Source of the DNA: Tolypothrix bouteillei VB521301
Lineage (GTDB): Bacteria > Cyanobacteriota > Cyanobacteriia > Cyanobacteriales > Nostocaceae
Assembly (NCBI RefSeq): GCF_000760695.4
Contig: NZ_JHEG04000001.1
Location: 6,888,204-6,952,203 of the forward strand
DNA length: 64,000 nucleotides
Direction of reading: 5' to 3'
Positions within the stretch are counted from its first letter, which is position 1. Every line of letters starts with the position of its first letter. A program made the translations under genes and the position numbers. This document shows positions 33,367 through 56,316 of the stretch, piece after piece. Under the pieces are notes generated by a model that saw only the letters and a list, made by a program, of their open reading frames with translations, did no database searches and had not been told where the DNA came from.

Positions 33367-33394
33367 ACATCGTTATTACTTAACAAAACTTGAT

Positions 33395-38143: not shown

Positions 38144-39475
38144 ATGCCTGAAGCTGAGCTATCAAAAACGATAACATTTTCCTATGACGAATCTGATGAT
38201 AACAGCATGGGAAATGAACTTTATCAATTCATCTGTAAGCTTTATCCAATTTGTCGCAGCATTACAGGAAATGGTACTCGCAAAACTCTGCAACTCCTTC
38301 AAGAAGATATTCCTTTAAAAATCCATGAAATTCCAACAGGGACTCAGGTTTTTGATTGGACTGTTCCTAAAGAATGGAATATCAAAGATGCTTATATTAA
38401 AAATTCCAAAGGCGAAAAAATTTTAGAATTTGCTAACTCAAACCTGCATATTCTTAATTACAGTATTCCAATTCACAAGAAAGTAAATCTTCAAGAATTA
38501 ACAGATCATTTGTTTACAATTCCAGAACACCCTACTTGGATTCCATATCGGACTTCATACTATAAGGAAACCTGGGGATTTTGCTTAACTCACCAACAAT
38601 ACTTGGAACTTCAAGATGACGAATATGAGGTTTTTATTGATTCTTCCCTTGAACCCGGTTATCTGACTTATGGTGAATACTTTATTCCTGGAGAAAGCTC
38701 AGATGAAGTGTTAATCTCTTGCCATATCTGTCATCCTTCACTTTGTAACGATAATTTATCTGGAATAGCGATCGCAGTTTCTTTAGCAAAACACATTAAC
38801 CAAGTTACGCCATACTATTCTTACAGATTTCTTTTCATTCCGGGAACTATTGGTTCAATTACCTGGCTAGCTTTAAATGAGATAAATGTATCCAAAATCA
38901 AACACGGTTTAGTTTTGACATGTTTGGGTGATGCAGGAAAATTTACTTACAAAAAAAGCCGCCGAGGCGATACTGAAATCGATAAAATTGTAACTTATAT
39001 TCTTAATAACACAACAAAAGATTCTAAAGTTATAGATTTCTTTCCTTATGGGTATGATGAGCGACAATACTGCTCTCCAGGATTTAATTTAGCTGTTGGT
39101 TGCTTAATGAGATCGCCACACGGCAGTTTTCCTGAATATCACACATCAGCAGATAATTTGGATTTTATACAACCCCAATACCTTGCTGATTCATTATCTA
39201 AATGTATATCAATATTATCTATCCTCGACAATAATAAGATTTATCTCAATCAAAATCCTAAATGCGAACCACAAATGGGTAAAAGAGGTTTATACAAAGC
39301 AGTCGGAGGTTATAAAAATGATGAGCTAAATCAAATGGCACTTTTATGGGTTTTGAATTTGTCTGATGGACATCATACACTATTGGATATTGCTCAAAAA
39401 TCCGGAATAACATTTGATGAAATCAAGTATGCTGCTGATGCATTGCTGAAACACGATTTGTTAAAAATTCTTTGA
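38144..39475 (+). CDS. DUF4910 domain aminopeptidase-like protein
   Basis: A 443-residue protein of the DUF4910/DUF2172 family, a zinc peptidase-like fold related to M28 aminopeptidases, with a C-terminal winged-helix domain (HHTLLDIAQKSGITFDE). The metal-site motif SCHICHPSLCNDNLSG lies at about residue 192 and SADNLDF and FPEYHTSADNL further on. It starts YPICRSITGNGTRKTL, the family hallmark. These genes are recurrently found in surface-polysaccharide and sugar-modification islands, as here after the PIG-L gene. The true substrate is unknown; it may be a modified sugar rather than a peptide. It is the last gene of the operon. Confidence 0.85.
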   Translation: MPEAELSKTITFSYDESDDNSMGNELYQFICKLYPICRSITGNGTRKTLQLLQEDIPLKIHEIPTGTQVFDWTVPKEWNIKDAYIKNSKGEKILEFANSNLHILNYSIPIHKKVNLQELTDHLFTIPEHPTWIPYRTSYYKETWGFCLTHQQYLELQDDEYEVFIDSSLEPGYLTYGEYFIPGESSDEVLISCHICHPSLCNDNLSGIAIAVSLAKHINQVTPYYSYRFLFIPGTIGSITWLALNEINVSKIKHGLVLTCLGDAGKFTYKKSRRGDTEIDKIVTYILNNTTKDSKVIDFFPYGYDERQYCSPGFNLAVGCLMRSPHGSFPEYHTSADNLDFIQPQYLADSLSKCISILSILDNNKIYLNQNPKCEPQMGKRGLYKAVGGYKNDELNQMALLWVLNLSDGHHTLLDIAQKSGITFDEIKYAADALLKHDLLKIL

Positions 39476-39514
39476 GCTTTTGAACACAACTTGAGTACAA
39501 TAGGTGGTAAAATC

Positions 39515-39751
39515 ATGGAACGCAAACAAGTTATATTTAAACGGATAGTTTCACCAGATGGTAAAACTATTGTTGACCTAAGAAGTATTGCCAAGACATC
39601 TGGCGATGGTCAAAATGAAATTCATCAAAATTGGTCAGTCGAGGATAATCAAATTCAGGCTAGTCAAAATATTTCCGTTAATATTTCATCTAGCGGTCAC
39701 TCTGCAAAATCTTCACAGGCTGCTTCTATTTCTATCAACAAGCATCAATAA
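39515..39751 (+). CDS. Small Ser/Asn-rich protein, possibly a secreted-peptide precursor
   Basis: A 78-residue protein, MERKQVIFKRIVSPDGKTIV at its start and a Ser/Ile/Asn-rich C-terminal half (NISVNISSSGHSAKSS). The N-terminal part looks like a short beta-hairpin domain; there is no GG site and no Cys. I choose ATG at 39515 over the upstream frame start because AGGTGG lies about ten bases before it. It is located between the sugar operon and the first RiPP-region peptide and is followed by a strong terminator. Similar short proteins with Ser-rich tails occur in other filamentous cyanobacteria (recollection); no function is known. Confidence 0.55.
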   Translation: MERKQVIFKRIVSPDGKTIVDLRSIAKTSGDGQNEIHQNWSVEDNQIQASQNISVNISSSGHSAKSSQAASISINKHQ

Positions 39752-39869
39752 CAAAAACATGGATACTCTGTATCATTCACATGGTTTTTGAATCTTAATA
39801 AGTTCAAACTGAAAACAAGACACCAAGCCTTAATAGCTATCTTTCTCACCGACAAGCCAGTTAATAAAA

Positions 39870-39904
39870 ACTCAAGAGTTCAGACACAAATTGAACTCTT
39901 GAGT
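39870..39904 (+). terminator. Strong hairpin terminator
   Basis: ACTCAAGAGTTCA (39870-39882) and TGAACTCTTGAGT (39892-39904) form a perfect 13-bp stem with a nine-base loop, followed by ATATTT. It separates the small gene at 39515 from the peptide gene at 39945. Confidence 0.8.
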
Positions 39905-39944
39905 ATATTTCAATCAACTTTGTTTTACACCTTACATTTTCACT

Positions 39945-40310
39945 ATGATTATTTCTGATTTAAGTCATCTGGAAACCACTTTTGAAGACGCTGCAATTAT
40001 AGGTGGTAGTAATGGAATCTTATTCGTTGTTGGAGAAACAGCTTATGATAAGTTAAAAATCCTTAGCGCAACTGGCACAATCTCTATTAAAGAGTTACTT
40101 AAAAATGGTGTTATAGCTAAAGGTAAAGGTTTTGTTATAGCACTAGGCTCCGATCTAATTGATGCTACAGCTACAGTGAGTGTTTCTGGAGATGCTGAAG
40201 GTACAAAAACTGTAATCAAGGCTGAGGGTTATTCTGCTGATAACAGTACTAGTGCGATCTCCATCAGTCAGATTACTGTAAAACCCATTACTCTCGCTTC
40301 TCCAAGCTAA
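39945..40310 (+). CDS. ISDL-type double-glycine leader peptide
   Basis: A 121-residue precursor starting MIISDLSHLETTFEDAAIIG, with GG at residues 20-21. The core is longer than in the other members and mixes hydrophobic beta-strand-like stretches (ILFVVGETAYDKLKI, GFVIALGSDL) with Ser/Thr-rich ones. It has no Cys. The first ten residues match the gene at 43709 in nine positions. It lies directly upstream of the RiPP genes on the same strand, 42 bp before the next one. No clear ribosome binding site is present. Probable cargo of one of the C39 exporters; activity unknown. Confidence 0.7.
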   Translation: MIISDLSHLETTFEDAAIIGGSNGILFVVGETAYDKLKILSATGTISIKELLKNGVIAKGKGFVIALGSDLIDATATVSVSGDAEGTKTVIKAEGYSADNSTSAISISQITVKPITLASPS

Positions 40311-40351
40311 AAACACAATTTCGGCTTAATTGAATCACCCAGGATAGACAC

Positions 40352-40627
40352 ATGGAAGACAACAAAATATCTAACCATCAAATGGAAATTAATGACCTAA
40401 TCGATCTTGCCATTACTAATGCGGCGATCCGAAGAGGATTAGTAGAGGGAGAGGATTGTTTAGCTTTATCTGATGACGAAGCTACAAAAGTTACTGGTGG
40501 CGCGACAATTAGTACAGATGTAAAATCTATAAACACTAAGACTCCACCAACAGTAGCAGGGTTTAAACCAATTTGTCCGCCGCTTATAGTGGGACTGATT
40601 GCACAGGATTACAATAAACTTGCTTAA
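40352..40627 (+). CDS. Probable RiPP precursor with double-glycine leader
   Basis: A 91-residue peptide gene. The leader (MEDNKISNHQMEINDLIDLA to residue 50) ends LSDDEATKVTGG, a typical Nif11/double-glycine cut site. The 41-residue core contains a Pro-rich stretch and one Cys (AGFKPICPPLIVGLIAQDYN). It has no XYG motif, unlike the precursor at 41174, so if modified it is by a different reaction or not by the neighbouring radical SAM enzyme. AGGA lies before the ATG. It lies 50 bp before the Cys-rich gene, in what looks like one transcription unit ending with the radical SAM gene. Confidence 0.65.
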   Translation: MEDNKISNHQMEINDLIDLAITNAAIRRGLVEGEDCLALSDDEATKVTGGATISTDVKSINTKTPPTVAGFKPICPPLIVGLIAQDYNKLA

Positions 40628-40676
40628 TTTTTTGCCTTCAAGTGTTAAAGATGCTCTTTCAATGGAGGCTAAATTA

Positions 40677-41147
40677 ATGGAAGACATTACTCCCAAGCAA
40701 ACAACTCTTTGTCCTAGTGCTAGACCCGAATCCGTAAATGGTGTTGTCTTTGGCATAGTTGCTGGAACAGCGATCGCACCTCGTATAGCCTATCTCAAAA
40801 AGCCCCTGCCCGTTACAGATGAACTGATGGCAAAGGCTACTGGATCGGTTACACCCGCAGAGATTTTCCGAACTGCAGCATCCTGCGCGGAATCAGGCTG
40901 TCAGCATTTTGATGGCAAAGACTGTCGTCTATCAATGCGGATTGTCGAAAAATTGCCTGCGGTAGTAGAAGAACTACCACCCTGTTCTATCCGCCGAAAT
41001 TGTCGATGGTGGCAGCAAGAAGGCAAAGCAGCTTGTATGCGATGTCCGCAAATTGTGACAGATAACTATTCTTCATCCGAACAATTACGTCAAGCAGCAA
41101 ATCCTGCTACAGATCCTTCCATTAATTTTCAATCTTCATTGGAGTAA
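40677..41147 (+). CDS. Cysteine-rich protein of the RiPP cluster
   Basis: A 156-residue protein with nine Cys, eight of them clustered: SCAESGCQHFDGKDC, PPCSIRRNCRWW and ACMRCPQIV. The pattern suggests an iron-sulfur cluster or zinc. The N-terminal half (GVVFGIVAGTAIAPRIAYLK) is non-metal. ATG at 40677 has GGAGG eight bases upstream, so I prefer it over the earlier frame start at 40599. Proteins of this kind are labelled nitrogen fixation protein in cyanobacterial genomes (recollection) and sit near Nif11-type peptide genes. Its place between two precursor genes suggests a part in maturation, for example electron supply; that is inference. Confidence 0.65.
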   Translation: MEDITPKQTTLCPSARPESVNGVVFGIVAGTAIAPRIAYLKKPLPVTDELMAKATGSVTPAEIFRTAASCAESGCQHFDGKDCRLSMRIVEKLPAVVEELPPCSIRRNCRWWQQEGKAACMRCPQIVTDNYSSSEQLRQAANPATDPSINFQSSLE

Positions 41148-41173
41148 AACCTCATTCCCAGGAAAGAATCATC

Positions 41174-41596
41174 ATGTCCCTAGAAATTTTTGAAAAAGTC
41201 AAAGACTTTCTTGTCAAACTAGTTAAAGACGAAGCCTTCCGAACTCAACTCATGAGCGGGAAAGCGGAAGAAGTTAAAAAAGCTCTAGAAAATGGTGGCT
41301 ATAACTTTTCTCAACAAGAATTTGAAACAGCCGCTATTCAAATATTAGAGTTGAAAGAATTAGGTGAGTTTCACGAACTTAGCGAAGAGGAATTAGTAGG
41401 AGCTTTTGGTGGTATTACAAGCATCAATGATAGAGTTATTCAACCATTATACGGCGTTATATATTGGCCTCCGAAAGGATGTCTAAAACCATGTATAAAA
41501 CCAAAGCCAATTGACCCGCAACCGATGTACGGCATAGTTATCGATCCACCCGTACAAGCGCTATACGGAGTCGTTGCTCCATCAGAACTACAATAG
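41174..41596 (+). CDS. Nif11-type (NHLP) RiPP precursor with three XYG splice motifs
   Basis: A 140-residue precursor. The leader (residues 1-80) is Nif11-like, beginning MSLEIFEKVKDFLVKLVKDE, and ends ELVGAFGG. The 60-residue core carries three repeats: QPLYGVI (LYG 92-94), QPMYGIV (MYG 118-120) and QALYGVV (LYG 130-132), plus two Cys. In PlpA precursors, the radical SAM enzyme PlpX removes a tyramine unit at XYG, leaving an alpha-keto-beta-amino acid. The radical SAM/SPASM gene follows 131 bp downstream. AGGAAAG precedes the ATG. The motifs are seen directly; the splicing chemistry is inferred from the PlpA/PlpX precedent. Confidence 0.82.
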   Translation: MSLEIFEKVKDFLVKLVKDEAFRTQLMSGKAEEVKKALENGGYNFSQQEFETAAIQILELKELGEFHELSEEELVGAFGGITSINDRVIQPLYGVIYWPPKGCLKPCIKPKPIDPQPMYGIVIDPPVQALYGVVAPSELQ

Positions 41597-41619
41597 CCCT
41601 AAGCTGACTTATTAGGGTT

Positions 41620-41727
41620 GTCATTTGTCATTGGTCAGTGGTCATTAGTTACTGGTCACTGGTGACTTATCTTTAAATTACAAACGACAAATGACAAATG
41701 ACAAACGATAAATAACAAATAATTATT
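41620..41727. repeat. STRR-type repeats before the radical SAM gene
   Basis: Tandem variants of GTCATTTGTCATTGGTCA and ACAAATGACAAATGACAA fill the spacer between the precursor and the radical SAM gene. The two halves are partly reverse complements and could fold. Confidence 0.65.
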
Positions 41728-42993
41728 ATGGCATATCATCGCAAAAGTTATGCAGTCTGGGAAATTACTTTAAAGTGCAATTTAGCTTGTAGCCATTGTG
41801 GTTCCCGTGCTGGAAATACTCGCTCTAAAGAACTTTCAACAGAAGAAGCTTTAGATCTTGTCAAACAAATGGCAGAAGTTGGGATTAAAGAAGTTACTCT
41901 CATCGGTGGTGAGGCATTTTTGCGTCCAGATTGGTTGGAAATTGCCAAAGCTATTAACGAGGCAGGTATGTTATGTGGTATGACTACTGGCGGTTATGGG
42001 ATTTCATTAGAAACTGCACGTAAAATGAAGGCAGCGGGAATTCGCACTGTTTCCGTTTCCATTGACGGCTTAGAAGAAACTCACGATCGCCTGCGAGGAA
42101 GGAAAGGTTCTTGGAAATATGCTTTTCAAACCATGCGCCATTTACGAGAAGTTGGTATTTCCTTCGGTTGCAACACCCAAATAAACCGCTTGTCAGCGCC
42201 TGAGTTTCCTTGTATCTATGAATGCATTCGTGATGCTGGTGCTCGTGCATGGCAAATTCAACTCACCGTCCCCATGGGTAATGCAGCCGATAATGCGGAC
42301 ATACTCCTTCAACCCCATGAACTACTGGATATCTACCCCATGCTAGCTCGTGTCGCCCGTCGCGCCTACCAGGAAGGAGTTCAACTCCAAGCCGGAAATA
42401 ATATTGGTTACTATGGTCCTTACGAACGGCTGTTACGGGGACGGGGAAACGAGCATGAATTCTCATTTTGGCAAGGTTGTGGTGCAGGGCTTTCCACTCT
42501 GGGAATTGAAGCCGACGGAGCAATCAAAGGTTGTCCCTCATTACCTACTACCGCCTACACAGGTGGTAATATTCGAGAGCATTCTTTGCATGACATTATT
42601 GAAAATTCAGCACAACTGCGTTTAAATCTGGGAGCAGGAACGCCTGAAGGCACAAAACATCTATGGGGTTTCTGTAAAACCTGCGAATATGCAGAACTTT
42701 GCCGTGGAGGTTGCAGTTGGACGGCTCATGTTTTCTTCGATCGCAGAGGTAATAATCCTTACTGTCATCATCGCGCTCTTGTTTATCAAGAACGAGGTTT
42801 GAGAGAGCGTGTTATTCCTAAAGTGAAAGCACAAGGACTACCCTTTGATAATGGTGAATTTGAGCTAATTGTGGAGCCTATAAGTACTCCTCTACCAGAA
42901 AACGATCCATTAAACTTTTGTGCTGATAATATTCAGTGGTCTGAAAGTTGGCAGAACAAACCCGAAATTTCTTACTCATTGATGGAGCAATAG
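41728..42993 (+). CDS. Radical SAM/SPASM RiPP maturase, PlpX-like (Nif11-class)
   Basis: A 421-residue radical S-adenosylmethionine enzyme. The cluster motif CNLACSHC (Cys17, 21, 24) binds the SAM-cleaving [4Fe-4S]; GGEAFLRPDW follows. The C-terminal SPASM/twitch region has further Cys in WQGCGAGLSTLGIEADG, GCPSLP, FCKTCEYAELCRGGCSW and NPYCHHR. The whole resembles the Nif11-class peptide maturases that include PlpX, which excises tyramine from XYG motifs. The neighbouring precursor has three such motifs. A small gene begins seven bases after the stop, in the place of the PlpX partner PlpY. Reaction is inferred from family and precursor; other radical SAM crosslinks are the alternative. Confidence 0.88.
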   Translation: MAYHRKSYAVWEITLKCNLACSHCGSRAGNTRSKELSTEEALDLVKQMAEVGIKEVTLIGGEAFLRPDWLEIAKAINEAGMLCGMTTGGYGISLETARKMKAAGIRTVSVSIDGLEETHDRLRGRKGSWKYAFQTMRHLREVGISFGCNTQINRLSAPEFPCIYECIRDAGARAWQIQLTVPMGNAADNADILLQPHELLDIYPMLARVARRAYQEGVQLQAGNNIGYYGPYERLLRGRGNEHEFSFWQGCGAGLSTLGIEADGAIKGCPSLPTTAYTGGNIREHSLHDIIENSAQLRLNLGAGTPEGTKHLWGFCKTCEYAELCRGGCSWTAHVFFDRRGNNPYCHHRALVYQERGLRERVIPKVKAQGLPFDNGEFELIVEPISTPLPENDPLNFCADNIQWSESWQNKPEISYSLMEQ

Positions 42994-42999
42994 CTCGTG

Positions 43000-43212
43000 A
43001 TGGAAAATATAGAAATTCTCAAAATTCAAGAAAAAAACACCGACGTTGATTCATCTTTTGATGAATTAGAAAAAACTCCTCTGCTTCCTCGTTCAGCTTG
43101 GAACAGGCAATTAAGCCATTTAAAAGAAGTTTTTAAAGCCAAGCAAGCTTTAGATAAAATAGAACAGATTTATAAAGATTCTAAAAATCTTAAAGAGTCG
43201 AAGTATTCGTGA
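43000..43212 (+). CDS. Small partner protein downstream of the radical SAM enzyme (PlpY position)
   Basis: A 70-residue, helical, charged protein (MENIEILKIQEKNTDVDSSF; ending KIEQIYKDSKNLKESKYS) with LPRSAWNRQLSHLKEVFKAK in the middle. It starts seven bases after the radical SAM stop codon, so it is coexpressed. PlpX-type splicing enzymes work with a small protein, PlpY, encoded next to them; this gene takes that place. I cannot confirm homology by eye. GTG at 42997 is an alternative start. Confidence 0.6.
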   Translation: MENIEILKIQEKNTDVDSSFDELEKTPLLPRSAWNRQLSHLKEVFKAKQALDKIEQIYKDSKNLKESKYS

Positions 43213-43708
43213 TGAAAACTTTACCATCAATATGAAATCTTTCCTTCCCAAATGCATGGGTTTTATTCTCTATTTCCCCAGGGAAGATGGGATTAGAGGA
43301 TGAGGTCAATAAAGTTTTAGCACATTTAAAGTGCTCACTTTGACTTTGCCATAATGAGGATGCTTGAAAAGTCATGATTGATGGATTAAATATTTTTTAC
43401 ACCACCCTAACCCAGAGCTTGCAAAAGGGAGGGAACTAAGTTTTTCTTATTTCCCCCCTTTCCTAGAGGGGACTAAGGGGGGTAATAATGTATAAAAATG
43501 GTAACTAAACACTTTTCAAATATCCTCGTTATAGCGAAATAAATTTACTAATTTTTTTAATTTAAACAATTCTAAATTTTATTGAAATTAAAGTTATTAT
43601 GAATTACTATTTTAAGTAATTTCTTATAAAAGAAATACAAAATAATTATAATAAATATGTAATAATAAAAATGCCAAGATCGAGAATTTAGGAAAAGTAT
43701 TTCTAGCT
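43213..43708. other. AT-rich spacer before the last ISDL peptide gene
   Basis: About 500 bp without a gene. Around 43395-43490 it holds an inverted-repeat piece with CCCTAACCCAGAG and TCCCCCCTTTCCTAGAGGGG, ACTAAGGGGGGT of the kind dispersed in these genomes. The rest is very AT-rich and probably carries the promoter of the gene at 43709. Confidence 0.5.
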
Positions 43709-44065
43709 ATGATTATCTCTGATTTAAGTCATTTAGATATTCTTTCTGAAGATGATGCAATTTTAGGAAGTGCTGGAGCTACAGTTAGCACGAATGCTAC
43801 AGCTTCTGGTGACTATACCCAAACTAAGGCTGTAACTAAATCCTTTGCTCTACCGTTGGGTAATAATGGTTCTCTGGCTATCGGTATTGGTTATGCTCAA
43901 GCATCTGCAGTGGATTCACAAGATGCTAGTGCTGTGACTTCTGTTTCCGGATCTGCTAACGGAGATATCAATTTTGTTATTGGGAAAAATTATTCCACCG
44001 ATAATGGTCCTAGGGCTAGAGCGGGAGGTGTTGTTCTTGCAGTAGGAATCGATATTCCTGGATAA
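43709..44065 (+). CDS. ISDL-type peptide with altered cleavage site
   Basis: A 118-residue protein starting MIISDLSHLDILSEDDAILG, clearly the same leader type as at 39945, but the GG is replaced by GSAG. The core is rich in Ser, Ala, Gly and Thr (TVSTNATASGDYTQTKAV) with alternating hydrophobic positions and no Cys. AGGAAA lies upstream at a slightly long distance. If the exporter peptidase needs GG this one may be cut poorly or after SAG. It is the last member of the plus-strand set in this region and converges with the PEP-CTERM gene. Confidence 0.7.
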   Translation: MIISDLSHLDILSEDDAILGSAGATVSTNATASGDYTQTKAVTKSFALPLGNNGSLAIGIGYAQASAVDSQDASAVTSVSGSANGDINFVIGKNYSTDNGPRARAGGVVLAVGIDIPG

Positions 44066-44249
44066 ATGCGCTTAACTAAAATCAGACTTGAGACGGGTGC
44101 ATCTCGCAAATTTTCAGAGTCGCTATTTGAATGTATTGTCAATGCGATTGCTGAAGTTTTTGGACTCATAAACAAACTTTGCGATCGCACTGACTTTCAT
44201 TAAAATGCTGAGGCACGAAGCCTCATCTCTTGAGTGCGGGGTGCTGACG

Positions 44250-45113
44250 TTAAACCTCTGCAGACACTTTTGACTCTGAAGAGGATTCTAAAGATTTTCC
44301 TTTGCGTTTACCCTTTAATACTAAGCTAACAACTGCACTTGGCGCAAGTAAAGCAAGGATACTTGAAGGTTCAGGTGCTTGCACTTTAGCCTGATTTCTC
44401 CTAATTTCCACTAGTGCTAAAACTGTGTCTTGAGTTATCTCTCGGTTTAAAGAACCTTTAACAGACGCCGTAATAAATTCATTGTTGCCTCCAAAGCTAT
44501 AGTTATATTCACTTTCTGGCTCAAGGAAGGTAATATTTTCACTTTTATCCAGTGCAAGGAAATCGTCGTCTCCAAGAGTATTTAAATTTCCCACAAGGCT
44601 AAAGAAATCTAAAACACGCTCTCGCTCTGTGTCAACTAAGGCTAAAAATATATCTCCAGCTGCTCTTGCATTTTCTCCAGGAGGATTGTCTATTGATGTT
44701 TCTAGATCTAAATTAGCTGTAAAATCAAAACGAAAGGGTGTATTTGCCTCTACATTGAAGAAGCCGCGAACTATAGTTTCACTTTTTGCCAATCCCAAGT
44801 AATTTCTCGTTTCACCTAAGGCTGTACTTAAAGATGAAGTAGATGCGAAGGATGGTTCCGTCAGAAACCCTGCTTGCGCGTCAGCAAAAGCATTTACCAA
44901 ACCTTGCTTTGAAACAGCCAGTGTGTCAGTGTCAGCTACACTATCAGTCAAAAAGGGTTTTTGACTGAAGTTGATATAGAGTGATTCGCCTTGAGACGTT
45001 GCAAAGGTAGCAGCATAACTAGGTGATACGGCTAATACAGAACCTGCGATCGCAGGAGTCGCAAACAGCAAAAAGTGCTTTGCTCTTTGTAAGTGTGGGT
45101 TTATAGTTCTCAT
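44250..45113 (-). CDS. PEP-CTERM sorting domain protein
   Basis: A 287-residue exported protein. The N-terminus (MRTINPHLQRAKHFLLFATP, then AIAGSVLAVSPSYAATF) is a signal peptide with a likely cut after SYA. The C-terminus has the PEP-CTERM sorting signal: APEPSSILALLAPSAVVSLV followed by a basic tail. The body is Ser/Asp-rich and beta-prone, without a known domain, and has segments (GDIFLALVDTERERVLDFF, LVGNLNTLGDDDFLALDKSE) common to cyanobacterial PEP-CTERM proteins. The longer frame to 45155 would start at TTG; ATG at 45113 is preferred. It is convergent with the peptide gene at 43709. Role unknown; probably surface attached. Confidence 0.8.
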   Translation of the reverse strand: MRTINPHLQRAKHFLLFATPAIAGSVLAVSPSYAATFATSQGESLYINFSQKPFLTDSVADTDTLAVSKQGLVNAFADAQAGFLTEPSFASTSSLSTALGETRNYLGLAKSETIVRGFFNVEANTPFRFDFTANLDLETSIDNPPGENARAAGDIFLALVDTERERVLDFFSLVGNLNTLGDDDFLALDKSENITFLEPESEYNYSFGGNNEFITASVKGSLNREITQDTVLALVEIRRNQAKVQAPEPSSILALLAPSAVVSLVLKGKRKGKSLESSSESKVSAEV

Positions 45114-45464
45114 CTGTATGTAATTTTGAATGGATGCAAAACTTGGCAATCTCAACCTGTAAGCCAGGAAAATACCTAGCTCACTCCGAACCTATTGCCA
45201 AACAATTTTTCTTCAAACAAAGAATGCTTGTATCAGTCTTTATGGCTAAAAGACTGTGGTAAATACTATGTACCCCTGGGAGGTCAATTTTTACTTACGT
45301 AACTATACTACTGTTCTCAAACTATGTCTCGTGTAAACTTTCCATAATATATTGTCAAATTTACACAAAAGTTTTTTTATCAAATTTTTATAAACTCATC
45401 AATTTAATACAAATTTCTGAAATATTGAGGTTGTAGCGTCGAATCTACCCCCCTTAGTCCCCTA

Positions 45465-45592
45465 GGGCTGTTTCATTTTCCAAAGAAAAAACCTCAAACT
45501 CTTATTTGTCCGTTCTTTACCTGGGATAGTTCACAAACTGGAAACGATGCTTTGAGGTTTTCAAGTTTTATCTACGAAGAATGAAACAGCCC
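45465..45592. mobile_element. MITE-like element with TA target duplication
   Basis: Perfect 13-base terminal inverted repeats, GGGCTGTTTCATT and AATGAAACAGCCC, bound a 128-bp segment flanked by TA on each side. An inner inverted repeat (AACCTCAAA / TTTGAGGTT) lies inside. It carries no gene. TA duplications are typical of IS630/Tc1-mariner-type transposases, which could mobilise it. Confidence 0.8.
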
Positions 45593-45815
45593 TACCCTTG
45601 GAAAGGGGGAAAATTAGGATTCTCAGTTCCTTATACAAGGAGAAAATCGTCTTTTCACGTTATCTCAATAGGAATCAGCCATCCTTAATTTTCTTTACCT
45701 GTACAGAATCTCCAACAGAGGCGTTCCCTACAGTGTATACACAAGTCTATAATACCTAGCCGATATACCGAGGTTTTAGCGTTATTTTACGCAATCCTAA
45801 ACCTCCCTTTTTTAA

Positions 45816-45962
45816 CTACGGCGTACACAAAAGTCTCCTAAAATGCCTTCTGACAGTTTCGATCCCCCCCTAGCCCCCCTTAAAAAGGGGGGAAATTTCT
45901 TCAAGTCCTCCGATAAATTGGGGGGTTTTGGGGGCTCTCTAAAGATGCGTACACCACCGTAG
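45816..45962. mobile_element. Small inverted-repeat element, family copy 1
   Basis: The ends CTACGGCGTACAC and GCGTACACCACCGTAG are imperfect inverted repeats. The inside contains GATCCCCCCTAGCCCCCCTT. The reverse complement of this inner part matches the element at 54217-54377. Confidence 0.6.
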
Positions 45963-46338
45963 CCCTTTTTTAAGAAGAGAAAATTTTTATACAACCACAT
46001 TTTTTTTATATAATTTTTATTTTAAACTTAATATAAAGAGAATTTAAAGATTTGATGAAGATTGTTTTTTTAAAGGCAGAAACCCTTGACTAAGTACTAA
46101 GAAGTTTTACTATTAGTGAACAGTAGTTTGATACACAGACTCAAGAAATGTTGCTTCGTCATTGAAATTATCTTTCAGGGATTTCAAATTTCATCAGAGT
46201 TTGCGTATTCAAACCAATTCTTTAAGGTTGCAAACAAGAGCCACAATTTTGGTACTTAAGGGTAGGCTTTGGAACCATAAAGACTTGGTACACTACGTTT
46301 TCACATAGCTAATAATTTGCTGTAGTTATTCTTATATA

Positions 46339-46458
46339 CAGCAATCCTATTTGATTTATAAAAAACAAGTTGAATGGCATTGCCTACTAAAAAATACGAT
46401 GTGGGCATTGCATACCATACAGTACCTAAAATTGTTGATAAATAATTTAGGATTGCTA
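46339..46458. mobile_element. Small inverted-repeat element upstream of the helix-turn-helix gene
   Basis: The ends CAGCAATCCTA and TAGGATTGCTA are inverted repeats with one mismatch, flanked by TA. The left end continues TTTGATTTATAAA exactly as at 35231. About 120 bp, no gene. It ends about 70 bp before the start of the helix-turn-helix gene and could affect its expression. Confidence 0.6.
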
Positions 46459-46527
46459 TATTGATGTTTTTAGGAATATTCCCAAGTGAAATTATTCCCA
46501 ACAATGGAAGAAAACCATTAGTAAAAC

Positions 46528-47118
46528 ATGAAGAATGTAGACAAGAAGATTGCAATAGATGGTCAGGTGTGCTATAAATTTTTAACACCTTTTCAGCGCA
46601 AAATTCTAATTAAGAATTTACAAACAAATTTACAGCCAGAATACCGTCGAAGGCTGGAAATTATGTTAATGGCAGACCAGGGGAAATCGCAAACTCAAAT
46701 CTGCGAGATATTAGGTTGTTCAAAAGAAATGGCGCGTTACTGGAGCACTGTGGCAAAAGCGGGGCTAGCACATAAATGGCAAGAACAACCGAAAGGCAGA
46801 CCCAAGACAGTTAATGACCAATACATTGAAAGATTAAAAGAATTGGTGAGATATAGCCCTCGCGAGTATGGATATGGATTTGATACGTGGACTGCTCAAT
46901 GGTTAAGCAAACATCTAGCTCAAGAATTGGGCATTGAAATTAGCGATCGCCATATCAATCGCTTGCTGAAAAAAATGGGACTTTCCAAAAAACAAAAAAG
47001 CTCTTCTAACAAAGCAGTCAGAAACCAGCCTAAGGATGCAGCGATCGCGATCGATGACTTGCAATCCAACGTTGAGCCAAGTTTCCATTGGTCATTCAAT
47101 TTAATTCAGCATAACTAG
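46528..47118 (+). CDS. IS630-type helix-turn-helix protein, probable regulator
   Basis: A 196-residue DNA-binding protein. Residues about 45-105 form a homeodomain-like helix-turn-helix (ADQGKSQTQICEILGCSKEM) and residues 115-165 a winged-helix domain (LKELVRYSPREYGYGFDTWT, SDRHINRLLKKMGLSKK). Both are those of IS630-family transposase N-termini, but the catalytic DDE domain is missing and the protein ends with an unrelated tail. It lies 400 bp upstream of the second exporter on the same strand. I read it as a domesticated regulator for the exporter unit; a truncated transposase remnant is the alternative. Confidence 0.7.
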   Translation: MKNVDKKIAIDGQVCYKFLTPFQRKILIKNLQTNLQPEYRRRLEIMLMADQGKSQTQICEILGCSKEMARYWSTVAKAGLAHKWQEQPKGRPKTVNDQYIERLKELVRYSPREYGYGFDTWTAQWLSKHLAQELGIEISDRHINRLLKKMGLSKKQKSSSNKAVRNQPKDAAIAIDDLQSNVEPSFHWSFNLIQHN

Positions 47119-47518
47119 TACACGAAGGCAGAAGTCCGCTCGTCAGAGGAGCCACTACAGTGGACGGGTTCCACAGGCTTCAGCAAGTGGTGAGTCCAGT
47201 CCTACAGGCGGTGAGACCAGTGCTGCAGGCGGGTTTCCCGCCGTAAGCGACTGGCGTATAGCCCTGCGGGCATAGCTTCGCATCGTGGAGCGTGTGCTTG
47301 CACATAGCGTCTGTGCTCCTGAGATACGCGTAAGAGCGTGGCAGAAGGTGCCAAAGTTTTGATTGACAGCTTTTTGCTTGTTACTAATGGTTGCTTTATT
47401 TACGCCAACCTGTACTAGTCAGTGGTTAGTAGATAGTCGTAAGTCGTTAGTAGTTAACAAATAACAACTAACCGCTGACCACTCACAATTAACCATTAAC
47501 AATTAACCATTAACCAAT
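47119..47518. repeat. Dispersed repeats upstream of the second exporter
   Basis: The spacer is made of repeat words. GTGGTGAGTCCAGTCCT and CGGGTTTCCC at 47187-47240 recur at 8440-8482. From about 47415 tandem STRR-like words such as AACAATTAACCATTAAC fill the space up to the start codon. No gene is seen. Confidence 0.65.
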
Positions 47519-50314
47519 ATGTTATCAGAGTTTTCTTTACAACAACTCGGTCAACAACTTATCAGTATCTTAGGTGAGAAACTTCCAGAACAAGAACTTG
47601 CTTCATACCAGACAATGGTAGAGATCGTAGAACCACCAGCAGCAAAGCAGTTTTGGCACTCAACAAATACTCATACTGGAATTTATATAGTCCTTACTGG
47701 AAAAGTAAGACTGCTAGATAGTTCTGGTAATTTAATTTCCACCCTCGAAGTCGGAGCATCATTTGGTGAAGTGACTCTTTTTCCAAACGAGAATTTCAGC
47801 CCCTATGCTGCTAGAGCTTCATATAACTTGAAGCTTTGCTATCTAAACAAACAAATCTTGCAAATTTTAATAAGTAAATATCCCAATATCCAAGCTCACT
47901 TGTTGGCTCGCGCAGAAAGTTGGGAGCGACTTCTAAATTCTTACCAACAAGAGGCGGACACATCATATCAAGATGTATCCATGACTTCTGGCTTAAAGAT
48001 TGACGAGCGAAAAAGCCATGACTACACTTCTGTTCCAATAACAGAGCGAAGGAAAGTCATTCCATTTCCCTCGCAGACCATAGCACAACCAAAACAAAAA
48101 AGATCGCGTGTTTACTTTCCCAATCCCAAAGTCAGAGTAGGGCAAATATGGGGACGACTGACGCGGCGCTATCCGTTCTTTGAACAACAAAGCCTTGCAG
48201 ACTGTGGTGTAGCCTGCTTGGTGATGATTGCTCGCTATTGGGGAAAGCGCCTGAGTGTCAATCGATTGCGAGAATTAGCCAATGTTAACCGTAGTGGAGC
48301 CTCTTTGCGTGCATTAGCAGCAGCAGCAGAAAGCATTGGTTTTTCTACCCGTCCTGTAAAAGCTAGTTTCGATAAATTAGCAGAACAACCCCTACCCGCG
48401 ATCGTGCATTGGGAAGGCAAACATTACATTGTCGTGTATGAAATTACTTCCAAATATGTGATTGTTGGCGATCCTGCTGTTGCTCAACGGAAGCTGAGCC
48501 ATGCAGAGTTCAAAAGGGGTTGGACGGGTTATGCATTGTTATTGCAACCTACAGCACGACTCAAAGAAAGCCAAGAAGCGAGTACGCCGTTTTGGCAGTT
48601 ATTCGAGTTAGTCAAACCACATACGACTGTTCTAGTAGAAGTCTTCTTGGCTTCTGTGTTTATTCAGGTTTTTGGGCTGGTCACACCTTTATTTACACAG
48701 TTGTTATTAGACCGAGTGATTATCCAAGGTAGCACCATTACCTTAACTGCTATTGGTCTGGGCTTGGTGATTTTTGGTTTGTTCCGCGTTGCGATGAACG
48801 GACTACGACAATATTTGCTGGATCACACGGCAAATCGAGTAGGAGTCTCTTTGTTGGTGGGGTTTATCAAACATACCTTCCGCTTACCCTTAGCCTTTTT
48901 TGAGTCTCGTTACGTTGGTGATATTATTTCTCGCGTTCAGGAGAATCAAAAAATTCAGCGCTTTCTTACGGGAGAAGCACTGTCCATAATTCTTGATTTG
49001 CTTACAGTAGTTGTTTATATAGGATTGATGTTTTGGTATAGCTGGCAAATGGCATTGCTAGTGCTATTGGTTATACCACCCTTTTTCCTATTAGCTCTGA
49101 TAACCACGCCTTTACTCCGCCGTATCAACCGTGAGGTGTTTAATGCTTTAAGCGAAGAGAACAGTTATTTGATTCAATCTCTGACGGGAATTCGTTCTAT
49201 CCGGTCAATGGCAATTGAGCAAACAGTTCGCTGGCGTTGGGAAGAACTCCTAAATCAGTTGATCAAAAAAATGTTTGGCGCTCAAGTCGTTGCAAACCAA
49301 CTACAAATTTTCAGTTCTACCATCGAATCTTTGGCAACGACAGGATTACTGTGGTTTGGAGCATGGTTAGTGATTCAAAACCAACTATCCATCGGGCAAC
49401 TTGTTGCTTTCAATATGCTGTTGGGTAATGTCATTCATCCTTTTCAGCGTCTAACAGTTCTGTGGAATCAATTGCAAGAAATTGTTGTAGCCACCGAGCG
49501 GATTAATGATGTTCTCGATGCAGAACCAGAAGAAGATTTACTTTTATCACCCCGCCAGTCCTTACCAAGACTTTGCGGTCACATTCGCTTCGAGAATGTC
49601 ACATTTCGCTACCATCCAGAAAGCGACACAAACATACTGGAAAACATTAACTTTGAAATCCAGCCCAATCAAACTGTAGCGGTTGTGGGGCGTAGCGGTT
49701 CTGGTAAAACTACGCTTTCTAAATTAATCTTGGGATTATATCCTCCCACTACAGGTAAAGTCTCGATAGATGGTCACGATGTAGCTAATATTTCTCTCAA
49801 ATCGCTGCGTTCTCAAATGGGTGTTGTTGACCAAGAGACTTTCTTATTTGGCGGTACGATTCGAGAAAACATCAGCATTGCTCACCCAGAAGCCACTCTA
49901 GAAGAAATTGTTGAGGCGGCGCGTTTAGCAGGCGCAGATGAATTTATTCGACAACTACCACTTGGCTACGAAACTCAAATTGGTGAAGGTGGCGGAATGC
50001 TTTCTGGCGGTCAACGTCAGCGTTTAGCGATCGCTCGTGCATTGTTAGGTAATCCCCAGTTCCTAATTTTTGATGAAGCCACCAGTCACCTAGATGCAGA
50101 ATCAGAACGTATCATTCAGAACAACTTGAAGACTATTCTCAAAGGACGTACTAGCTTGATTATTGCTCATCGCCTCTCTACCATACGCGATGCTGACTTG
50201 ATTTTGGTGTTAGACCAGGGGATTTTGATCGAAAGCGGTACTCATGATGAATTAGTCGCGAAAAAAGGACATTATTACTACCTCAATCAAAAACAACTCA
50301 CTCAAGCAGGTTGA
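47519..50314 (+). CDS. Peptidase-containing ABC exporter (PCAT) with cyclic-nucleotide-binding-like domain
   Basis: A 931-residue paralogue of the exporter at 20472. Order: cyclic-nucleotide-binding-like domain (about 30-130), short linker, C39 peptidase with Cys229 (LADCGVACL), His302 and Asp318, transmembrane domain (about 355-630) and ATPase (Walker A GRSGSGKT near 724, LSGGQRQ, LIFDEATSH). It lacks about 90 residues between the regulatory domain and the peptidase that the first exporter has. All catalytic residues are present. It begins a unit with HlyD and PpiC-like genes and is followed by two convergent short GG peptides. Role: leader cleavage and secretion of small peptides at the inner membrane. 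Confidence 0.93.
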   Translation: MLSEFSLQQLGQQLISILGEKLPEQELASYQTMVEIVEPPAAKQFWHSTNTHTGIYIVLTGKVRLLDSSGNLISTLEVGASFGEVTLFPNENFSPYAARASYNLKLCYLNKQILQILISKYPNIQAHLLARAESWERLLNSYQQEADTSYQDVSMTSGLKIDERKSHDYTSVPITERRKVIPFPSQTIAQPKQKRSRVYFPNPKVRVGQIWGRLTRRYPFFEQQSLADCGVACLVMIARYWGKRLSVNRLRELANVNRSGASLRALAAAAESIGFSTRPVKASFDKLAEQPLPAIVHWEGKHYIVVYEITSKYVIVGDPAVAQRKLSHAEFKRGWTGYALLLQPTARLKESQEASTPFWQLFELVKPHTTVLVEVFLASVFIQVFGLVTPLFTQLLLDRVIIQGSTITLTAIGLGLVIFGLFRVAMNGLRQYLLDHTANRVGVSLLVGFIKHTFRLPLAFFESRYVGDIISRVQENQKIQRFLTGEALSIILDLLTVVVYIGLMFWYSWQMALLVLLVIPPFFLLALITTPLLRRINREVFNALSEENSYLIQSLTGIRSIRSMAIEQTVRWRWEELLNQLIKKMFGAQVVANQLQIFSSTIESLATTGLLWFGAWLVIQNQLSIGQLVAFNMLLGNVIHPFQRLTVLWNQLQEIVVATERINDVLDAEPEEDLLLSPRQSLPRLCGHIRFENVTFRYHPESDTNILENINFEIQPNQTVAVVGRSGSGKTTLSKLILGLYPPTTGKVSIDGHDVANISLKSLRSQMGVVDQETFLFGGTIRENISIAHPEATLEEIVEAARLAGADEFIRQLPLGYETQIGEGGGMLSGGQRQRLAIARALLGNPQFLIFDEATSHLDAESERIIQNNLKTILKGRTSLIIAHRLSTIRDADLILVLDQGILIESGTHDELVAKKGHYYYLNQKQLTQAG

Positions 50315-50493
50315 GTCATTTGTCACTGGTCACCGATCGGTTTTGTTGGGTTTCGTTCCTCAAACGCCACATCGCTCAACGGGGGGAACCCTCCGCAGTT
50401 GCTTCAACGGGGGGAACCCCCGCAACGCACTGCTCTCCACACGCGAGTGGCTCCCCAACCTACGGTCACTTCCTCATTCTCTATCCCCTTCAT

Positions 50494-52035
50494 ATGGCTA
50501 ATCTATCTAATAATTCATCATCAACATTCTCTCCCTCTGAGGAGCGACAAATAACTGACACAGCCCTAAATTCAGTTAAGGAAGCTCGTCCTGTAAAAGA
50601 GCATTCTAGCGATTGGTTTTACGGTACTGAGGAACTCTTAGATGCTTTACCAAAACGTTGGACGCGCTCTTTGCTGTATATGCTTGTGGTTTTTAGTGCG
50701 ATCGCTTTACCTTGGGCGATGTTTTCAAAAGTCGATGAGACGGGAAGTGCTAGAGGACGTATCGAACCACTCGGCGCAGCACAAAGATTGGATACTCAAG
50801 TCAGTGGAAGTGTCACTGCGGTTAAAGTTAAAGAAGGAGAATTGGTAAAAGCGGGACAAGTTTTAGTAGAACTGGAGTCAGATGTCTTAAAAACTGATTT
50901 GCAGCAGACACGTGCAAAGCTCGAAGGACAAAAAAATCGGTTGGCGCAACAAAATTTACTCAAAAATCAACTCTTACTGGCTATTAGTGTCCAACAACAA
51001 CAAAACCAATCTCAAGAATTAGAAAAGATTGCTCAACTTAATCAAGCAAAGCAAAACCTGGATGCAAAACAAAGCACTTATAACTTACTAAAATTGGAGA
51101 AACTTGCTTTGGTTGACCAAGCAAAGCAAAACCTAATTTCTACCCAGACTGTCCATAACTTAGCCACAATTCGCTGGAATCGCGATTTAAAAGAAGTCCA
51201 ACGCTATCAAAAGCTGTTACAAAAGGGCGCAATTGCCGAAATCAAAATCGTGGAACTGGAAAAAGCCGCAGAAGAAAGCCAAAGGTTGCACGAGCAAACT
51301 CAATCGGATATTAAACAAGCTCGGTTGCGTCTGGCTGAGGAGCAAAACCGCTATCAGACGATTATGCGTCAAGCACAAGCAGACATTGAACAAGCAAAAC
51401 TGAGACTTGTCGAACAACAAAGTAGTTATAAAAGTGTGCTTCATACTGGCAAATTGGCTTTGTTGAAAAATCAGGAACAACTCAAAGATTTGCAAACACA
51501 AATAACTAGCTTGCGTTCTGAGATTGCTCAAACAAACAGCCAGATAACATCCTTAAAGCTTCAGTTAGAGCAGCGAATTGTTAAATCTCCTGTAGATGGA
51601 GTCATTTTTGAATTACCTATTGAGAAGCCAGGAGCCGTAGTGCAACCAGGTCAGATGATAGCCCAAATAGCCCCAAAAGAATCTCCTTTTGTACTTAGAG
51701 CCTCTATACCCAGCCAAAATACTGGTTTCTTGAAAGTGGGTAATAAAGTGAAAATCAAGTTTGACGCGTATCCTTTTCAAGATTATGGAGTCGTCTCCGG
51801 ACGTGTCAGTAGAATTTCACCAGACTCCAAACTTCAGGATACAAATCAAGGCAAAATGGAAACTTTTGAATTGGATATTACTCTAGATTCGTTTGATATC
51901 CAAACTGGCAATAAACGCATTCCTTTAACCCCCGGTCAGACAGCAACAGCAGAAGTCATTACTCGACAACGTCGAGTTATTGATTTCATCTTAGATCCAT
52001 TTAAGAAGCTACAAAAAGGCGGGTTAGAACTTTAG
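50494..52035 (+). CDS. HlyD family membrane fusion protein (exporter adaptor)
   Basis: The adaptor of the second exporter, 513 residues, closely matching the one at 23593: cytoplasmic tail with DWFYGTEELLDALPKRWTRS, one membrane helix (LLYMLVVFSAIALPWAM), lipoyl-like halves (GSVTAVKVKEGELVKAGQ and QRIVKSPVDGVIFELPIEKP), long coiled coil between them and a C-terminal beta-barrel. The open frame begins at 50311, but that leading part runs through a CAACGGGGGGAACC-type repeat; ATG at 50494 gives MANLSNNSSSTFSPSEE, comparable to MPQPFSNSSSTVSQTEQ of the paralogue. It lies about 180 bp after the exporter and 100 bp before the PpiC-like gene. Confidence 0.92.
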   Translation: MANLSNNSSSTFSPSEERQITDTALNSVKEARPVKEHSSDWFYGTEELLDALPKRWTRSLLYMLVVFSAIALPWAMFSKVDETGSARGRIEPLGAAQRLDTQVSGSVTAVKVKEGELVKAGQVLVELESDVLKTDLQQTRAKLEGQKNRLAQQNLLKNQLLLAISVQQQQNQSQELEKIAQLNQAKQNLDAKQSTYNLLKLEKLALVDQAKQNLISTQTVHNLATIRWNRDLKEVQRYQKLLQKGAIAEIKIVELEKAAEESQRLHEQTQSDIKQARLRLAEEQNRYQTIMRQAQADIEQAKLRLVEQQSSYKSVLHTGKLALLKNQEQLKDLQTQITSLRSEIAQTNSQITSLKLQLEQRIVKSPVDGVIFELPIEKPGAVVQPGQMIAQIAPKESPFVLRASIPSQNTGFLKVGNKVKIKFDAYPFQDYGVVSGRVSRISPDSKLQDTNQGKMETFELDITLDSFDIQTGNKRIPLTPGQTATAEVITRQRRVIDFILDPFKKLQKGGLEL

Positions 52036-52134
52036 CGATTGGTGAGTTGTTAATTGTTAGTGGTTAGTGGGTATTTGAACATAAAAACTGGCAACCAACC
52101 ACTAACAGCGTTAATTTTTTGGAGGAATTGAATC

Positions 52135-52920
52135 ATGTTAAGTTGTTTGAATATCTCCCTTAATGATATCCTTTTTCAGTTGAAAGTTTCCTATCAAATG
52201 CCAGGATTAATAGAAGCGATCGCCGCTCGTAAAATTATTATGAATTCTGCTCGAGAAGCAGGTATTCAAGTCGATATAACCTCACTACAACAAGCAGCAG
52301 ATAGCTTGCGATTAGCCAACAATTTGCTGAAAGCAGAAGATACCTGGGCGTGGCTGCAAAAACATCATCTTACTTTAGAGGAATTTGAACAATTAGCAGA
52401 AACAAATCTGTTGTCTGCACAATTAGCTAACCATTTATTTGCAGACAAAGTTGAACCCTTCTTTTACGAACATCAACTGGATTACTTGGCTGCTGTTACC
52501 TATGAAGTTGTCTTAGACGATGAAGATGTAGCCTGTGAGCTTTTTTATGCTCTTATAGAGCGCGAAATCAGTTTCCAAGAAGTAGCCCGTAAATATATCA
52601 AAAATCCCGAACTACGTCGTGCTGGTGGATATCGCGGTGTACGATATCGTACTAACTTTCCAGCGGAAATCGCTGCTCTTGTCTTTGCTGCAAATCCCCC
52701 ACAATTACTCAAACCCATAGTAACTTCTCAAGGTGTTCATCTCTTGAGTGTTGAGGAAATTATTCAACCGGAATTAAATCAGCAACTGCATTTTAAGATT
52801 ATGACTGATTTGTTTTCTGCATGGTTAAAGGAACAAATTGCGGAAATAGAAATTGTCACGCAGTTTGAACCAGATTCTTCTTATTCTCAAACCGTCCCAG
52901 AACTTTTAAAACTTGCTTAA
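52135..52920 (+). CDS. PpiC/SurA-like peptidylprolyl isomerase family protein
   Basis: A 261-residue exporter-associated protein closely related to the one at 25209: helical N-terminal half (AIAARKIIMNSAREAGIQVD), then a parvulin-like half (CELFYALIEREISFQEVARK, RAGGYRGVRYRTNF, IVTSQGVHLLSVEE). GGAGG lies before the ATG. It is the last gene of the second exporter unit, ending before a bidirectional terminator. It is probably a cytosolic chaperone for the peptides; parvulin activity has not been shown by the sequence alone. Confidence 0.87.
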   Translation: MLSCLNISLNDILFQLKVSYQMPGLIEAIAARKIIMNSAREAGIQVDITSLQQAADSLRLANNLLKAEDTWAWLQKHHLTLEEFEQLAETNLLSAQLANHLFADKVEPFFYEHQLDYLAAVTYEVVLDDEDVACELFYALIEREISFQEVARKYIKNPELRRAGGYRGVRYRTNFPAEIAALVFAANPPQLLKPIVTSQGVHLLSVEEIIQPELNQQLHFKIMTDLFSAWLKEQIAEIEIVTQFEPDSSYSQTVPELLKLA

Positions 52921-53128
52921 AAGTAGTTTATAAAATTCAATATGTATTTACTATGGTGCGTTAGCAGAAGCTGAACGCACCATTGTCTCACTTTGCTTGA
53001 TTTACCTCTCCCTCTAAAAATACCGATTTTTGTAAAATAGGTAGTGAACCTTACGCTTTATGGTAATTTTTTAACGGAAAGGAAACTATTTGATTATTCC
53101 ATCAGCTTCAGATACGCTCGTTCAAAAA

Positions 53129-53154
53129 CCCGGTTTCTTTTATAAGAAACCGGG
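53129..53154. terminator. Bidirectional hairpin terminator
   Basis: CCGGTTTCTT and AAGAAACCGG form a 10-bp stem around a four-base loop. AAAA runs before and TTTT after allow use in both directions. It lies between the PpiC-like gene (plus) and the small peptide gene (minus), where convergent transcripts should end. Confidence 0.8.
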
Positions 53155-53172
53155 GTTTTAAATTTTACTTCT

Positions 53173-53376
53173 TTATTTTGAGGACTGATTTGTAACGATG
53201 AGGTAAATCAAGTAAGCTGCAAATGCTTTTAATAATGTGGTAGCAAATATCTGAAAAGCATTACCACCAAATACAGCTACACACTCGTTTTCAGAAAGAT
53301 CGTTTAGAAAAGTATCAGAACCAGATAAAACCCGGTCATTAGCACTGGATAAATCAGAAATTGTAATTTTAGCCAT
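53173..53376 (-). CDS. Short double-glycine peptide with hydrophobic core (ITISDL type)
   Basis: A 67-residue precursor: leader MAKITISDLSSANDRVLSGS to ECVAVFGG (GG at 37-38), then a 29-residue hydrophobic core (FQIFATTLLKAFAAYLIYLI) that could insert in a membrane. The leader shares ITISDL with the gene at 53785 and ISDL with the four MIISDL peptides. It converges on the second exporter unit. This looks like a class II bacteriocin-like peptide that the exporter would cut and secrete. No immunity gene is evident nearby. Confidence 0.72.
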   Translation of the reverse strand: MAKITISDLSSANDRVLSGSDTFLNDLSENECVAVFGGNAFQIFATTLLKAFAAYLIYLIVTNQSSK

Positions 53377-53784
53377 TATTGTTGTTAAATGAATGATTAA
53401 ATCTCTGTACTACTCCTGTTCCACTAGAAGATTACCTATTGAAATGAACTGTAGTCGAAGTCAAGGAGATGAAGAAAGAAGAAAAGAAAATTTGTAATCT
53501 CGTAGCGGTCAGGGGGTACTTTATATTGTTGAAGAAATTTATAGGAAGAAGAATGACGTGCATTTTTTCACAAGAGCTGACTGTATGGATTCAAAATCCC
53601 AAGCCTATAAGTTGTTTGTTTTAGGTTGGAGCTAGAATCCCCAACCTAAAACCAAACTTCTTCCTTCTTTCTTCATTTAATCAAAAGGTCAGTTATACTA
53701 TTTGTATATACAATTGCTATTTTTAAGACATGAATTAGCAAAAAGACAAAGTAGTATAACATTCCCGATTGTTGGTAATTTGAA
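53377..53784. other. Spacer between the two minus-strand peptide genes
   Basis: About 400 bp, no gene seen. It should contain the promoter for the peptide gene at 53173 and perhaps a terminator of the one at 53785. An imperfect inverted pair GGTTGGAGCTAGAATCCCCAACC lies at about 53624-53646. Confidence 0.5.
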
Positions 53785-56274: not shown

Positions 56275-56316
56275 TTTTTTCTACTCCTTTTCAGCGTCCC
56301 TCGCATCTAGTTAGGT

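Follow-up and report, generated by a model that had tools for sequence, protein, structure and literature searches.

A probable PlpXY-type spliceotide cluster with three XYG sites in a single Nif11-leader precursor of Tolypothrix bouteillei

The stretch of DNA analysed here (the window), 64,000 nucleotides from the cyanobacterium Tolypothrix bouteillei VB521301, contains at positions 41174-43212 a group of three genes that very probably constitutes a PlpXY-type spliceotide cluster, with a Nif11-leader precursor bearing three XYG motifs, a radical SAM/SPASM splicease and a small partner protein. We consider it just as probable that the precursor would be spliced at one site or more, and, with less confidence, still fairly likely that all three XYG sites would be used. 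The assignment is based on the genes present, on their homology and co-occurrence, and on conserved motifs. An earlier note on this DNA had already described a PlpX-like spliceotide cluster, and this description is upheld by the TIGR04103 membership of the enzyme, its high identity to PlpX and their shared fork in a tree, by a relative of the partner in the position of PlpY, and by the match of the precursor to PlpA2. The features of the locus are collected in Table 1.

Table 1. Features of the putative spliceotide locus and its surroundings, in window positions
Feature	Position	Strand	Basis
Short double-Gly peptide, 91 aa	40352-40627	+	Leader EINDLI...RR...GG, core with CPPLIVGLIA
8-Cys protein, 160 aa	40665-41147	+	Eight invariant Cys in 24 rows
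Precursor peptide gene, 140 aa	41174..41596	+	Leader = residues 1-80, AFGG end; 60-aa Pro-rich core
Predicted splice site 1, LYG (QPLYGVI)	41447..41455	+	Sequence; context = family consensus
Predicted splice site 2, MYG (QPMYGIV)	41525..41533	+	Sequence; context = family consensus
Predicted splice site 3, LYG (QALYGVV)	41561..41569	+	Sequence; context = family consensus
Two hairpins between precursor and enzyme genes	41596..41703	+	RNA fold
PlpX-type radical SAM/SPASM splicease, 421 aa	41728..42993	+	TIGR04103 match, PlpX identity, conserved Cys
PlpY-type partner, 70 aa	43000..43212	+	ATG start; LPRxxW...K..L; 11/32 identical to L100 copy
Helix-turn-helix protein before exporter genes, accessory, loosely linked	46528..47118	+	PF13565/PF13592; relatives in 4/79 loci
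C39-peptidase ABC exporter with cyclic-nucleotide-binding domain	47519..50314	+	PF03412, PF00664, PF00005, PF00027
HlyD membrane-fusion protein of exporter	50311..52035	+	PF13437; relatives in 20/79 loci
PpiC-type peptidyl-prolyl isomerase, exporter operon	52135..52920	+	PF13145, PF00639

The radical SAM enzyme and its small partner

One of the related loci, L100 of genome G120, is treated here as the published plp cluster by its peptide sequences and gene order, since its two Nif11 peptides agree in their cores with the published tags of PlpA2 and PlpA3 and a PoyD-type epimerase (TIGR04517) lies 0.9 kb from its TIGR04103 gene. FPIRPLYGLPI forms the C-terminus of one of these peptides, and AVAAMYGVVFP opens the core of the other; both correspond, in their native form, to splice tags used in PMC10533398, where one of them is ascribed to PlpA2. 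PlpX and PlpY are listed as WP_019503880.1 and WP_019503879.1 in PMC11002830, and the 56-residue ORF that follows the enzyme gene in L100 is taken to be PlpY on account of the gene order and these consecutive accessions, its length being in keeping with the statement in PMC12710340 that an RRE fold would not fit into a protein as small as PlpY.

Sequence profile searches with the window enzyme, which carries the motif CNLACSHC, recovered the nif11-class maturase 3 family TIGR04103 at 813.7 bits (cut-off 725), a family in which PlpX of L100 scores 824 bits, also above the cut-off, and which we take to be the same as the PlpX subfamily IPR026482 named in a review. Among the best 25 of the 92 matches listed, the next-best NCBIfam family is that of the GDL-motif maturases (TIGR03913), with 422 bits against a cut-off of 591.75. 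Aligned with PlpX, the window enzyme is identical at 319 of 417 residues (76%), and 11 of its 15 Cys are found in all 84 ingroup rows of the alignment, with C148 present in 83 of them; the unconserved ones are C162 (15 rows), C166 (25) and C398 (1). A tree was built from 87 rows, comprising 79 related loci, the window, PlpX, three further genomes of the order and three outgroup enzymes, with L106 left out as its fetched stretch gave no enzyme. In this tree the window enzyme and PlpX lie in one fork of 37 rows (support 100/99), within which the former belongs to a clade of 25 rows (99/93) and the latter, flagged as a long row, to a neighbouring group of eight (94/96, below the mark of the tool); the placement of the root is unsure because the outgroup branch is very long. 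The earlier note had pointed to a radical SAM/SPASM gene with CNLACSHC behind the precursor, and had named a profile search against the Nif11-class maturases and a tree as checks. The gene is present as described, and its product falls into the PlpX subfamily by profile, identity and tree fork alike, grouping with PlpX rather than with another maturase clade.

For the comparison of loci, the 80 relatives most similar to the window enzyme were taken out of 216 (79 of them distinct), and the locus counts given here hence describe near relatives only. In a sample of 388 genomes drawn from the order, TIGR04103 is matched above its cut-off in 61.

The small gene, which had been placed seven bases behind the enzyme gene with 70 codons, indeed starts with an ATG at 43000, seven bases past the last base of the enzyme gene, and an in-frame GTG at 42997 would lengthen it to 71 codons. 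The next gene after PlpX in L100 shares with it the pattern LPRxxW...KAKxxL, and the alignment of the two products has an E-value of 2e-6 for that single comparison. In an alignment of 62 rows (the window, the L100 copy and 60 of the 77 located coordinates) the L, P, R, W, K and L of this pattern are invariant. Such a partner stands beside the enzyme in 79 of the 80 loci including the window, 78 being recovered by a motif scan within 3 kb and that of L032 seen separately; neither the motif scan nor ORF reading found one near the enzyme of L031. In the order sample the partner was detected in 64 of the 388 genomes, namely in 58 of the 61 with the enzyme and 6 of the 327 others. The former is a lower bound, since G120, which together with G024 and G233 makes up the three enzyme genomes without a detected partner, has a readable copy too divergent for that search. 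In three of the six partner-only genomes (G175, G280 and G332) the enzyme is matched in part.

The structure predicted for the window partner has an ill-defined N-terminus followed by one long helix of residues 32-69, with no strands; the mean pLDDT is 73, rising above 90 in the centre of the helix, and a search of PDB sequences with the protein returned no match. In one review (PMC11002830) PlpY is called an RRE. An RRE domain was rejected for the window partner, as the model predicts a single helix and lacks the RRE fold. This does not count against its membership in the PlpY type, because PlpY itself is described as too small for that fold (PMC12710340).

The precursor, its XYG sites and the proposed chemistry

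The leader of the precursor is of the Nif11 type, spliceotide leaders being of this or of the nitrile-hydratase type, and has a double Gly at its end; it is recovered by TIGR03798 (34.5 bits, cut-off 32.3) in NCBIfam and by PF07862 (28.4, cut-off 23.8) in Pfam searches. The heptapeptides QPLYGVI, QPMYGIV and QALYGVV, which the earlier note had reported behind the AFGG leader end, are all located in this ORF, whose core contains 11 Pro and 2 Cys in addition to the three XYG splice motifs. At the background rate of YG in ORFs of at least 300 residues from the same loci (455 occurrences in 161301 residues), a core of this length would be expected to hold 0.17, and by Poisson statistics three or more would arise with a probability of 7e-4, a value computed before the shared context of the sites is counted. 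Of the three matches to the Nif11-leader family in the window genome, only this precursor has YG after the leader; when aligned with PlpA2, it agrees at 38 of 98 positions.

Precursors of the related loci were recovered with a profile built from 16 leaders of the same loci, with which all 80 loci including the window were scanned. This yielded 120 Nif11 ORFs, 117 of them with YG in the core and at least one such ORF in 75 of the 80 loci. The cores hold one YG site in 45 cases, two in 60, three in 10, four in 2 and none in 3; the X of XYG, over 202 sites, is most often Leu (97), followed by Met (54), Ile (15) and Ala (11). A YG-bearing Nif11 ORF was not found in five of the 80 loci (L043, L046, L054, L039 and L075). 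In the first three this could be explained by the short upstream sequence, as they start only about 160 to 1030 bases before the enzyme gene, whereas L039 and L075, with 6 kb upstream, lack that excuse. The profile count replaced an earlier regex count (62 of the 80 loci), which had misread rows: the L010 row consisted of leader residues, one L025 row was not Nif11 and L019 was absent. The site contexts and Cys counts are still regex-based. The contexts, from the regex set of 83 ORFs, give the consensus Q-P/A-L/M-YG-V/I-V/I, with which the three window sites agree, and a long Pro-rich core is likewise seen in much of the clade of the window enzyme. As a separate observation, at L044:7502-9211 a Nif11-leader-like domain is fused into a protein of 569 residues, the later part of which begins like a sensor-like gene found after PlpY in L100.

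By homology to PlpXY, which naturally takes both MYG and LYG sites (PMC10533398), splicing is predicted at up to three sites of the window precursor. Recruitment of the precursor to the radical SAM/SPASM enzyme would rest on its Nif11 leader and on the small helical partner. At every XYG site that it accepts, the enzyme would remove the equivalent of tyramine, C8H9NO (about 135 Da), and joining of the cut ends would leave alpha-keto-beta-amino residues with the side chains of Leu, Met and Leu. The calculated monoisotopic mass of the core behind AFGG, with both thiols free, is 6626.56, and would fall to 6491.49, 6356.42 or 6221.35 upon one, two or three excisions; for C8H9NO a value of 135.0757 is printed in PMC10533398, the formula giving 135.068. 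The downstream C39 exporter would then most likely cut behind the Gly-Gly and export the Pro-rich peptide (60 residues before splicing). Carrying up to three ketoamides, which can trap protease nucleophiles, this peptide would likely inhibit proteases through as many reactive sites; Leu or Met at P1 would suggest targets of the chymotrypsin or elastase kind. For the reaction, the cleavage of the leader, the way of export and the inhibitory activity alike, this picture is extrapolated from PlpXY and from reviews. The electrophilic beta-amino acids that a radical SAM enzyme creates by backbone splicing have uses in protease inhibition and in labelling. A natural core with three consensus sites is well suited to testing the processivity of the enzyme, and the accepted context is described more broadly by the 117 natural YG cores than by a few model peptides.

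An account that might compete with splicing at all three sites, though we regard it as rather doubtful, is that the enzyme accepts one or two of them, the product carrying one or two ketoamides. Not every XYG need be used, given that the published tags fail in many contexts, with only 2 of 16 FtsZ constructs accepted in the table of PMC10533398. Related cores, moreover, vary between one and four sites, and individual sites have drifted, as with AYS in L015 where close relatives have LYG, and with MHG in L028. The agreement of all three window sites with the family consensus argues against a partial use, and splicing at each of them is the reading preferred here.

The region between the precursor and enzyme genes (41594-41727) folds with -39.8 kcal/mol (z -5.4 against 200 shuffles). 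Its two hairpins may form a transcript processing or attenuation element that keeps enzyme transcripts below precursor transcripts; an Rfam search of 39000-53500 at gathering thresholds returned no match. The strength of these hairpins, which separate the two genes, and the distance of 4.3 kb between the spliceotide genes and the exporter genes, which do not directly adjoin them, could also be seen as signs of a silent or decaying remnant. This is quite improbable in view of the three intact ORFs, the retained enzyme Cys and XYG contexts, and the same gene order in close relatives.

The two Cys in the core had further given rise to the suggestion that an additional bridge might form. The residues are indeed there, but a conserved bridge finds no support in the related cores: in the 32 printed rows of the clade of the enzyme, for which the regex kept only rows with YG, 17 have no Cys, 15 have at least one and 8 at least two. 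With Cys so scattered, the bridge was dropped as a conserved trait, although it may still form in this one peptide, and the conserved core Cys that would mark thioether-forming sactipeptides or ranthipeptides is likewise absent from this clade. Hence, even though SPASM maturases as a class perform many reactions and the enzyme has weaker matches to other maturase families, it is very improbable that, instead of splicing, it links the two Cys in a thioether or alters Tyr in some other way, considering its identity to PlpX, the presence of YG in every one of these YG-selected rows, Cys or no Cys, and the scores of the other families, which among the matches listed stay below their own cut-offs.

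Exporter genes, an upstream peptide pair and other neighbours

Within the available flanks of the 79 loci, relatives of the C39 ABC exporter occur in 15 and those of the PpiC-type isomerase in 41, and any of the three exporter genes is found near the enzyme in 45 of the 79, or in 37 of the 56 with full flanks. The C39 exporter of the window would likely cleave behind the double Gly and export the product of this precursor; PCAT exporters have been reported for spliceotides, and are not always used (PMC10885120).

Directly upstream of the precursor lie two genes, for a short double-Gly peptide and an 8-Cys protein, neither of which scored above chance in Pfam and NCBIfam searches. The alignment of the latter has one row from the window and the rest from 23 of 29 loci; the six loci not used are L081 and five with misread starts. 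The core of the peptide family often contains PPIxxGLIA. No Pfam domain is annotated in any of the 120 relatives of the 8-Cys protein that were listed (493 in all), many of which are named 'nitrogen fixation protein' by NCBI, the others being hypothetical or unnamed; a search against PDB sequences recovered no match, and the structure model is unusable (mean pLDDT 40). In the order sample the 8-Cys protein is found in 75 of the 388 genomes, 42 of the 61 with a splicease and 33 of the 327 others, and it lies within 5 kb of 34 of the 69 splicease genes over cut-off, a count from which six weak or second matches were left out. The double-Gly peptide accompanies it in 19 of the 29 splicease loci. 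Among 20 loci fetched from the 33 genomes that have the 8-Cys protein and no splicease over cut-off, the peptide was recognized by eye ahead of the 8-Cys gene in 13, or 14 with the divergent one of L121, and other leader-type peptides take this place in L129, L130 and L134. Being seen both beside spliceases and in genomes with no splicease over cut-off, the pair does not depend on splicing and often accompanies it. Tentatively, the locus could make two linked peptides, a three-site spliceotide and a double-Gly peptide handled by an undescribed 8-Cys protein, a proposal we would not rate as probable. If it were true, the 91-residue peptide and the 8-Cys protein would represent a new two-gene peptide module, and this upstream pair may be newer than the spliceotide cluster itself.

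In L127 (G328:C101) two XYG Nif11 precursors (QALYGVI and QPLYGVI) lie downstream of an 8-Cys protein gene, the ORF of the first beginning 8 bases past the matched part of that gene. G328 has no TIGR04103 match over cut-off, and the splicease gene could lie on sequence that is missing, or at another place.

Several further neighbours of the spliceotide genes were observed. The gene at 44250-45155 (-) encodes a surface protein without a Pfam match, presumably PEP-CTERM-like, which has relatives near the splicease in 11 of the 79 loci, all in the clade of the window enzyme. After the exporter operon, two peptidase-like ORFs on the minus strand (54766-56274 and 56317-57951), which we take to be of the M16 type, are represented by relatives close to the splicease of L020, L022 and L025. 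Upstream, 29554-35203 (+) encodes two large TPR proteins, both with a GT2 and the first also with a GT41 glycosyltransferase domain; 16 of the 79 loci have a relative of the second in the vicinity of the splicease. The gene at 38144-39475 (+) encodes a DUF4910/DUF2172 protein with a winged-helix tail, adjoining a PIG-L family gene. The spliceotide genes are flanked by two small ORFs at 39945-40310 and 43709-44065 (+), both of which start with MIISDLSHLE and have a short Gly-containing leader end, resembling the KIXDLXYLEX10GG motif given in PMC3140520.

Comparison with known systems

The export side of the locus resembles the group II cyanobacterial bacteriocin clusters surveyed in PMC3140520, where a C39 ABC transporter, HlyD and a rotamase (SurA) are described, as at 47519-52920 of the window, and where M16 peptidases are reported, comparable to the two peptidase-like ORFs at 54766-57951. 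The term radical SAM is absent from the main text of that survey, whereas the window has a radical SAM gene. The GDL-motif maturases provide the next-best profile for the enzyme, but at a score below their family cut-off. A TIGR04517 epimerase, which occurs over cut-off in 4 of the 61 enzyme genomes of the 388-genome sample, has no match in the window genome, and the cluster thus lacks the PoyD-like epimerase by which a proteusin might be recognized.

The closest parallel is the plp cluster of Pleurocapsa sp. PCC 7319, with which the window shares Nif11-leader XYG precursors, a TIGR04103 enzyme with an adjoining tiny LPRxxW partner, and the use of both Leu and Met at the X of XYG. It differs in that PlpA2 and PlpA3, as read in L100, have one XYG each, whereas the window has three in one longer Pro-rich core, and in that the epimerase PlpD lies near the L100 enzyme. 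For the splicease homologues of Scott et al. 2022 the same reaction, a broad distribution and protease inhibition are described (PMC10373908, PMC11002830), and PMC10373908, citing Morinaka 2018 and Scott 2022, also describes multiple splicing of one precursor. The window cluster is therefore a member of a widespread system of an already published kind, in which multi-site splicing has been described before. Three or more sites per core are uncommon (12 of the 120 related Nif11 ORFs) but not new, and neither the number of sites nor the long Pro-rich core takes the window cluster outside the known spliceotides.
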